Source: Streptomyces sp. RerS4 (GTDB lineage: Bacteria; Actinomycetota; Actinomycetes; Streptomycetales; Streptomycetaceae). Taken from it: 64,000 nucleotides of DNA. A program made the translations under genes and the position numbers. The first letter of the stretch is position 1; each line of letters starts with the position of its first letter. Positions 60,340-63,739 of the stretch are shown in pieces. Below the pieces are notes generated by a model that was not told where the DNA came from, did no database searches, and worked only from the letters and a program-made list of their open reading frames with translations. The stretch covers positions 7,116,501-7,180,500 of the forward strand of contig NZ_CP097322.1 in assembly GCF_023515955.1 (NCBI RefSeq). Reading direction: 5' to 3'.

Positions 60340-61005
60340 CTACGGGGCGCTGAAACCGGCCGCCCCGAACACTCCCGCACGCCCTGCCGCCACCGCTCCC
60401 GCCGCCGCCCGGCGGGGCAGGGCCGGATCCGGGGCGGACCGCAGGAGCAGCAGCTCGTGGTAGAGCGGGGCGGTCGCGGCGACCAGCAGCGCACGGGCGT
60501 CGACCGGACCCGGCAGCTCACCCCGCGCCGCGGCACGGACGGTGACCACCGCGCAGCGCGCGTAGCGGCCCTCCCAGAAGCGGGACAGGGCGCCGGCCGC
60601 CTCGGCCGAGCGGAATCCCGCGGCGATCAGGGCCGTGGTCACGTTCGGGCCGCCGCCGGCGAGGGCCTCGTACACCTCCTGGTTGAGGGCGGTCAGGTCC
60701 CCCTCCAGTGACCCCGTGTCGGGCGGGCTCCAAGTGTCGTCGGACGCCGCGCCGAGGACGTCCGCCAGCAGGCCTCCGACGTCACGCCACCGCCGGTAGA
60801 CCGTGGTGCGGTGCACCCCGGCGCGTTCGGCGACGGCGTCGACGGTGAGCCCGTCGTACCCGCCCTCGACCAGCAGTTCCCCCACGGCCTCCAGGACCTG
60901 CGCGCGGACCCGGGCGCTGCGGCCGCCCGGACGGGGCCGGGGGGTGTCCTGTTCGGAGTGGTTCGAGTGGCCGGATTCTTCGCTTGCTCGTGCGCTGGCA
61001 TCCAT
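60340..61005 (-). CDS. TetR family repressor of the resistance cassette
   Basis: 221 aa. The HTH reads RVRAQVLEAVGELLVEGGYD, GLTVDAVAERAGVHRTTVYR and RWRDVGGLLADVLGAA. The C-terminal ligand-binding half is helical (EGDLTALNQEVYEALAGGGP, ALSRFWEGRYARCAVVTVRA), of the TetR_C_16-like type, with an Ala/Arg-rich tail. The ATG at 61005 faces the ABC-F gene across ~117 bases that also contain the leader ORF. It is expected to repress the cassette and possibly itself. No perfect inverted repeat was found by eye in the gap. Confidence 0.88.
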   Translation of the reverse strand: MDASARASEESGHSNHSEQDTPRPRPGGRSARVRAQVLEAVGELLVEGGYDGLTVDAVAERAGVHRTTVYRRWRDVGGLLADVLGAASDDTWSPPDTGSLEGDLTALNQEVYEALAGGGPNVTTALIAAGFRSAEAAGALSRFWEGRYARCAVVTVRAAARGELPGPVDARALLVAATAPLYHELLLLRSAPDPALPRRAAAGAVAAGRAGVFGAAGFSAP

Positions 61006-61049
61006 GCAACGATCTTAACGCAACAGTCGTCGCGATAAGGAGTCCTCCG

Positions 61050-61122
61050 ATGGTTTCCCTGGCTCTCTCCCGCTCCCCTTCACCTGACCTCCAGCCCGCC
61101 CCCGAACCCCTGGAGCCGCTGC

Positions 61123-61148
<26 letters not shown>
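61050..61148 (+). CDS. Candidate leader peptide (uORF) of the ABC-F gene
   Basis: 32-codon ORF, MVSLALSRSPSPDLQPAPEP then LEPLHDRTAHRA, ending at TGA 61148. AAGGAG (61037-61042) stands 7 bases before its ATG, a better ribosome-binding site than that of the ABC-F gene itself. It overlaps the ABC-F start (61123) by 26 bases in another frame. The many Pro codons (SPSP, QPAPEPLEPL) could slow ribosomes. ARE ABC-F genes are known to be controlled by leader-peptide attenuation in several bacteria; assignment here is inference. Confidence 0.5.
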
Positions 61149-62787
<1,639 letters not shown>

Positions 62788-62830: not shown

Positions 62831-63739
62831 TTGACGAACACCACCTCCGCGCGCCTGCTCCACACGTACACCGTCACCACCCCCGGGTCGGGCCCGTACG
62901 GCCTGACCGCCGGGCCCGACGGCAACCTCTGGTGCACCCTCGTGCACGGCGGACGCGTCGCTCGGCTCTCCCCGGACGGGCAGCTCGACGAGTTCGCACT
63001 CGATTCGCCCGACTGCGGCCCGTCCCTGATCGCTCCCGGCCCCGACGGCGCGCTCTGGTTCACTCGGAACCGGGACCACCGGATCGGCCGCGTCACCCCC
63101 GACGGGCAGTCGCGCTCGTACGCCCTGCCCGGCGCCGGATCCGGACCGTACGGGCTCACCGCCGGACCGGACGGCGCGCTCTGGTTCACCGAGCTGCACA
63201 CGGACCGCGTCGGCCGGATCACCCCGGAAGGGGAGGTCACCGAGTACCCGCTGCCGTGCGAGGGCGCCTTCCCGTCCTTCATCACGGCCGCGCCCGACGG
63301 CGACCTGTGGTGCACGCTCAACCAGGCGGACGCCCTCGCACGGATCACCGTGGCAGGCGACGTCCGGCTGTACCCGCTGCCCACGCCCGGCACGGCCCCC
63401 GTGGGGCTCGCGGCGTCGCCGGACGGTTCCCTGTGGTTCGCCGGGATCGGCGCGGGCCTGATCGGGAGGATGACGCCGGACGGTCGGGTCACCGAGTACG
63501 CGCCGGCGGACGCGCAGAGCCGGCCCCACGCGGTGGCGGTGGCCCCGGACGGTTCCTGCTGGTTCACCGAGTGGGCCGCCGGACGGATCGGGAGGGTCTC
63601 CCCGGACGGGCGGATCACCGAGGTCCCCCTCCCGGACCCCGGCTGCGAACCGCACGGGCTGGCTTTCGGCCCGGACGGCACGCTGTACGTCGCGCTGGAG
63701 AGCGGCGCGGTCACCCGGTGGGACGTGAGCGGGGACTGA
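62831..63739 (+). CDS. vgb: Virginiamycin B lyase (streptogramin B lyase)
   Basis: 302 aa, the length of known Vgb enzymes. It is a seven-bladed beta-propeller built from repeats such as GPYGLTAGPDGALWFTELHT and RVGRITPEGEVTEYPLP. The residues that line the Vgb active site are present: His233 in RPHAV, Glu273 and His275 in CEPHG, and Glu290 in ALESG, matching His228, Glu268, His270 and Glu284 of the staphylococcal enzyme as I remember it. It should linearise type B streptogramins by Mg-dependent elimination at the ester bond. The start is TTG with AAGGAG at 5-base spacing. Likely co-transcribed with the ABC-F gene. Confidence 0.9.
   Translation: MTNTTSARLLHTYTVTTPGSGPYGLTAGPDGNLWCTLVHGGRVARLSPDGQLDEFALDSPDCGPSLIAPGPDGALWFTRNRDHRIGRVTPDGQSRSYALPGAGSGPYGLTAGPDGALWFTELHTDRVGRITPEGEVTEYPLPCEGAFPSFITAAPDGDLWCTLNQADALARITVAGDVRLYPLPTPGTAPVGLAASPDGSLWFAGIGAGLIGRMTPDGRVTEYAPADAQSRPHAVAVAPDGSCWFTEWAAGRIGRVSPDGRITEVPLPDPGCEPHGLAFGPDGTLYVALESGAVTRWDVSGD

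Follow-up and report, generated by a model that had tools for sequence, protein, structure and literature searches.

Comparison with related loci strongly supports the core idea of the first-pass annotation of this DNA, namely that an unannotated leader ORF running into the start of an ABC-F gene in Streptomyces sp. RerS4 controls that gene through its translation; the ORF is real, is under selection and appears to be translated, with translation read from the marks of that selection. Taking the explanation as a whole, we lean towards a TetR-controlled promoter followed by a leader whose translation gates ABC-F, and for the window itself we infer the step in which the ABC-F start is occluded. 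The window, as we call the entire 64,000-nucleotide stretch analysed, belongs to a genome of 7.54 Mb with Streptomyces relatives.

The leader ORF occupies positions 61050–61148 of the forward strand (32 sense codons plus a TGA at 61146–61148), starts with the ATG at 61050 and encodes the peptide MVSLALSRSPSPDLQPAPEPLEPLHDRTAHRA. It is preceded, with a 7-nt spacer, by the Shine-Dalgarno (SD) sequence AAGGAG (61037–61042, forward strand) and overlaps the ABC-F gene, whose ATG lies at 61123, over 26 nt in a different frame; the length, the SD with its spacing and the out-of-frame overlap given in the first-pass annotation were all reproduced on the sequence. The leader SD had also been ranked above that of the ABC-F gene, which holds for its length, but the latter gene has an SD of its own, GGAG (61112–61115, forward strand), located inside the leader with a 7-nt spacer that is identical in nearly all relatives. 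As claimed, the ORF is missed by annotation, and the annotated record of the close relative L110 likewise carries no feature at this position. As a base rate, 464 kb of the window's genome were screened, covering 163 genes whose start follows an SD: out-of-frame ORFs with any SD cross the gene start in four of them, and those with a strong SD in a single case, which is the leader itself. Its TGA, situated within ABC-F codons 8–9 (CTT GAC), is the sole stop in the leader frame for about 500 codons.

The ABC-F ATPase gene (61123–62787, forward strand; PF00005) is TlrC-like by sequence and not a proven member of that family: NCBIfam NF000171 (TlrC/CarA/OleB/SrmB; ARE4) is its best-scoring family, yet the 631 bits stay below the curated cutoff of 800. 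Its ARE4-like placement follows a published classification (PMC6723617). A divergent TetR-family regulator (60340–61005, reverse strand; PF16859, PF00440) lies upstream, with a homologue upstream of ABC-F in 79 of 80 relatives. Downstream is a gene for a Vgb streptogramin B lyase (62831–63739, forward strand), which matches the virginiamycin B lyase profile PF24684 at 430 bits against a gathering score of 50 and scores under the exception-level Vgb(A)/Vgb(B) cutoffs. Rfam gave no match anywhere in the window, and no intrinsic terminator, as used in transcription attenuators of the vmlR/lmrC type, was found in 60900–61200.

In the ABC-F protein tree, the window and 14 others form clade A (support 98), which is nested within a larger, leader-bearing group of clades A and B (support 100), with clade C outside. 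Two members of the tree's clade A, L031 and L042, have lost the leader, while L089 and L110 are absent from the tree and were assigned to clade A afterwards by sequence. When read by hand, L031 has no ATG, GTG or TTG in the stretch that separates an in-frame TAG from the conserved ABC-F sequence. In clade C the TetR gene and the operator repeats are present, and its Streptomyces members showed no leader of this kind.

Translation of the leader is indicated because insertions and deletions keep its frame, its stop is selected and its SD and start are invariant. Measured from the leader start codon to that of ABC-F, the spacing is 67, 70, 73, 76, 79 or 82 nt, which preserves the frame in 15 of 15 clade A members; across clades A and B the frame is kept in 48 of 49 members, the exception being L028 of clade B. 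None of the 13 aligned clade A members deviates in the leader SD or start, and alignment of related loci, which the first-pass annotation had proposed as a check, revealed that the start codon (ATG or GTG), the ribosome-binding site and the reading frame are all kept. The T of the leader TGA is the third base of an ABC-F codon and its GA comes from the GAC that follows, and at this point all 15 clade A members use a T-ending codon (CTT, TCT, ACT or CGT). Across the ABC-F genes of clade A, T-ending codons account for 1.8% on average, and the runner-up among the 545 codon columns reaches 5 of 15; in L007, where they make up 0.2% of the gene, the leader-stop codon is essentially the only one. These 15 members share ancestry and therefore do not represent 15 independent events, and the telling part of the pattern is that the encoded residue changes (Leu, Ser, Thr, Arg) while the T is retained. 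Where the ABC-F N-terminus is extended (L012, L033, L040 and L089), the frame and the same stop are kept, and the stop position shifts to +38, +41 or +101. GC content at codon positions 1, 2 and 3 of the leader body is 73, 66 and 90% in clade A, a pattern that is weak in the window's own leader (78, 61 and 67%). A conserved short upstream ORF of this kind, translated as judged by selection, is what uORF-controlled ARE ABC-F genes possess.

The peptide, on the other hand, is not conserved (MVSLALSRSPSP... in the window versus MVLMTFDRHPAI... in L007), so no stall motif can be named. Ribosome stalling on Pro-rich codons, as had been suggested from the window's sequence, was accordingly discarded, since neither the leader body nor its proline positions are kept even in comparison with the closest relatives, and the share of synonymous changes in the leader frame of clade B is not raised.

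The clade B leader, which typically reads ATG CTC NNC CGA AGC GTT CAC CCG..., participates in a hairpin in which CCGAAGCGTTC (leader codons 3–8) pairs with GAATGCTTCGG, the arm that contains and covers the ABC-F SD. When 29 sequences were aligned without gaps, 89.8% of cells were paired and 9 of 20 pairs carried double changes; sliding or shuffling abolishes this signal, and no shuffle equalled either measure. Leader codon 4 encodes Arg, Gln or Pro, changing together with the opposite arm, which argues that structure, not peptide, is selected in clade B, in agreement with the unraised synonymous share. According to our modelling, opening the SD costs 8.2 kcal/mol in the free state (median, 41 sequences) versus 4.1 kcal/mol with a ribosome on the leader start, the cost falls by at least 2 kcal/mol in 36 of the 41 sequences with a ribosome on codons 1–3, and the hairpin can reform once the ribosome passes codon 12. 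The covariation and the modelled stall thus make it well supported that the clade B leader acts as a textbook translational attenuator.

A covariance model of this leader, run over 297 genomes of the class, found it in 13, two of them with weak matches and no ABC-F (L152 and L153). Three genomes of one family (L149–L151, around 1501–1600) carry a near-perfect hairpin over the ABC-F SD together with a minimal leader, ATG CTC CTC TGA in L149 and L150 and ATG CTC CGC TGA in L151, and no TetR homologue was found nearby. Genome G172 has two copies of the hairpin leader (L154 and L141) before two different ABC-F genes. In five Streptosporangiaceae relatives (L056, L063, L074, L084 and L085), a different overlapping leader, for example MSLSPNTATTCPHRVSEAC..., lies just upstream of the ABC-F match, and the well-spaced ABC-F start is apparently CTG in all five.

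In the window, a weak candidate hairpin between CTCCAG (61089–61094) and CTGGAG (61110–61115, forward strand) over the ABC-F SD did not rise above chance: the SD opening cost is 6.0 kcal/mol versus 5.8 ± 1.1 in shuffled leaders, and a modelled stall leaves it unaffected (6.0 versus 5.9 kcal/mol). Folding, shuffling and modelled stalling gave no conserved SD pairing in clade A either, where the cost is 4.1 kcal/mol free versus 4.8 with a ribosome on the leader start and drops in 1 of 14 members. The window leader scores 21.4 bits with the clade B covariance model (E 0.0016 over 278 kb), mostly owing to the SD and start motifs, and most of the outer pairs are broken. Judged by these models, the window's clade has retained the leader while its ancestral hairpin is gone or masked. 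An SD sequestered by a helix with a leader arm, as in cat/erm-type attenuators, was therefore found in clade B and not in the window, and the earlier proposal that a stalled ribosome exposes the ABC-F start agrees with the covarying hairpin of the sister lineages and finds no counterpart beyond chance in the window.

We picture the control as follows. Leader ribosomes would start at 61050, read through the ABC-F SD and start codon in another frame and terminate at 61148, as the comparison indicates. In the sister lineages, covariation and modelling point to a hairpin of leader codons 3–8 with the ABC-F SD that would hold ABC-F off and that a ribosome stalling at the first codons of the leader would open. 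In the window, where the hairpin seems eroded, steady leader traffic may itself keep the ABC-F initiation site blocked; drug arrest within roughly codons 1–12, with the ribosome footprint ending before about 61100, would halt this traffic and free 61103–61140, whereupon ABC-F would be made. Since the window has neither a hairpin above chance nor a modelled stall effect, a classical switch is unsupported there, and relief from occlusion is our deduction. Going further, we tentatively suggest, as an idea that seems to us possible and rather short of probable, a structure-free switch in which leader traffic represses and arrest on any early codon relieves, with neither stall peptide nor hairpin, and which evolved from the hairpin attenuator still present in the sister lineages.

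GC-rich DNA often contains long open frames, and the ORF could in principle be a chance product of no role; we consider this very improbable, as the selected stop, the indels that keep the frame and the unchanging SD and start seen in the conservation tests already contradict it, and so does the rarity of such ORFs in the genome. A hairpin attenuator that still works in the window, with CTCCAG/CTGGAG over the SD being freed by arrest around codons 9–14, would fit the presence of this hairpin in the minimum-free-energy fold, the CTCCG/CGGAG pairing available to L007 in this position, where one pair differs on both sides, and the covariance score. Set against this are the SD opening cost, indistinguishable from that of shuffled leaders, the single clade A member responding to the modelled stall and the close relative L110, whose leader body lacks a CTCC arm, and we judge such a hairpin unlikely.

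The absence of both a hairpin and peptide conservation in clade A, as well as the loss of the leader in L031 and L042, would also be expected of a decaying relic in a locus regulated by TetR, where the leader stop is kept lest leaky initiation at the strong SD run through ABC-F. Preventing such run-on translation may indeed be the sole role of the selected stop, yet the simplest way to avoid run-on would be to lose the leader SD and start, which are invariant, and we give the relic little credence. Slightly less likely still is translational coupling, in which a ribosome that has terminated at 61148 backs up to 61123 and initiates again; translation of the leader would then raise ABC-F output and drug arrest would reduce it. 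The selected stop position in clade A speaks for it, but published measurements show no termination-reinitiation coupling at −25 nt (PMC12548453), which makes the 26-nt overlap too long, and the stop moves where the ABC-F N-terminus is extended; coupling of the ABC-F start, as considered in the first-pass annotation, was hence set aside as unlikely. With the hairpin lost, the leader kept and reinitiation unlikely, occlusion by leader traffic is the favoured explanation for the window.

Transcription probably begins upstream of the leader ATG at 61050. A TetR operator-like palindrome, TTAACGCAAC-AGTC-GTCGCGATAA (61015–61038), is kept in relatives, and a promoter-like element (TTGCTC, 18 nt, AACGAT; 60984–61013, forward strand) was recognised by eye from its conservation; a consensus promoter scan found none. 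Placed by these conserved elements, the transcription start is predicted near 61020, with a 5'UTR of about 30 nt ahead of the leader. A pattern search with YTAAYGCAACNNNNGTCG found the operator in 31 of 394 Streptomyces genomes, including sites before a Vat-like streptogramin A acetyltransferase gene in L118, L120, L123 (whose protein scores 243 bits versus a Vat model cutoff of 300) and L140 and before a lone vgb in L139; several further matches lie elsewhere, some next to other TetR-like genes. The sites before vat-like and vgb genes, combined with Vgb in the window's operon, suggest that the putative operator marks a streptogramin-responsive gene set and thereby point to a streptogramin signal; the inducer most likely belongs to the streptogramins or to other drugs that act at the peptidyl-transferase centre or exit tunnel. 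In L134 (1500–2400), the operator and leader are retained before what looks like an ABC-F remnant, and a vat-like gene comes next; there the leader seems to have outlasted the gene under its control.

Attenuation of ARE ABC-F genes by uORFs, to which the first-pass annotation had appealed, is established for VmlR (PMC9226507), LmrC (PMC8546547), TiaA and Are5sc (PMC12421871) and CplR (PMC10201436). The architecture of clade B matches cat/erm-type attenuators such as ermC/ErmCL (PMC10219788), with a short leader, an arrested ribosome and SD release, whereas the present leader extends across the SD and start codon of the gene it controls to a stop within that gene, in the window without a detectable hairpin. 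The genes lmrC, tiaA and are5sc (ARE5; PMC8546547, PMC12421871) are likewise Streptomyces ARE ABC-F genes with an antibiotic-sensing uORF, and are5scL1 encodes MLV while most clade B leaders begin with ML[F/I/V/L]; they differ in having premature terminators in longer 5'UTRs, compared to no terminator, a short predicted 5'UTR and a leader overlapping the gene. In the cplR system of Clostridioides difficile (PMC10201436), a uORF (MRI) and a sequestered ABC-F SD were shown to mediate translational attenuation, but this Firmicutes system combines a three-codon uORF with a terminator; closest to it in form are L149 and L150. In a literature search confined largely to open-access papers, we found no leader before TlrC/CarA/OleB/SrmB-type genes and no leader that overlaps the controlled start with a stop selected inside the gene. 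While ARE ABC-F attenuation itself is known, its overlapping form at a TlrC/CarA/OleB/SrmB-like gene therefore appears new.

The selected stop codon inside ABC-F provides sequence evidence for translation of an ORF that annotation missed. Together, the related loci form a natural series that separates the parts of the switch: hairpin with long leader, hairpin with three-codon leader, leader without hairpin and no leader. With this leader, the TlrC/CarA/OleB/SrmB-like lineage and a streptogramin-linked TetR operon would join the ribosome-sensing resistance genes.
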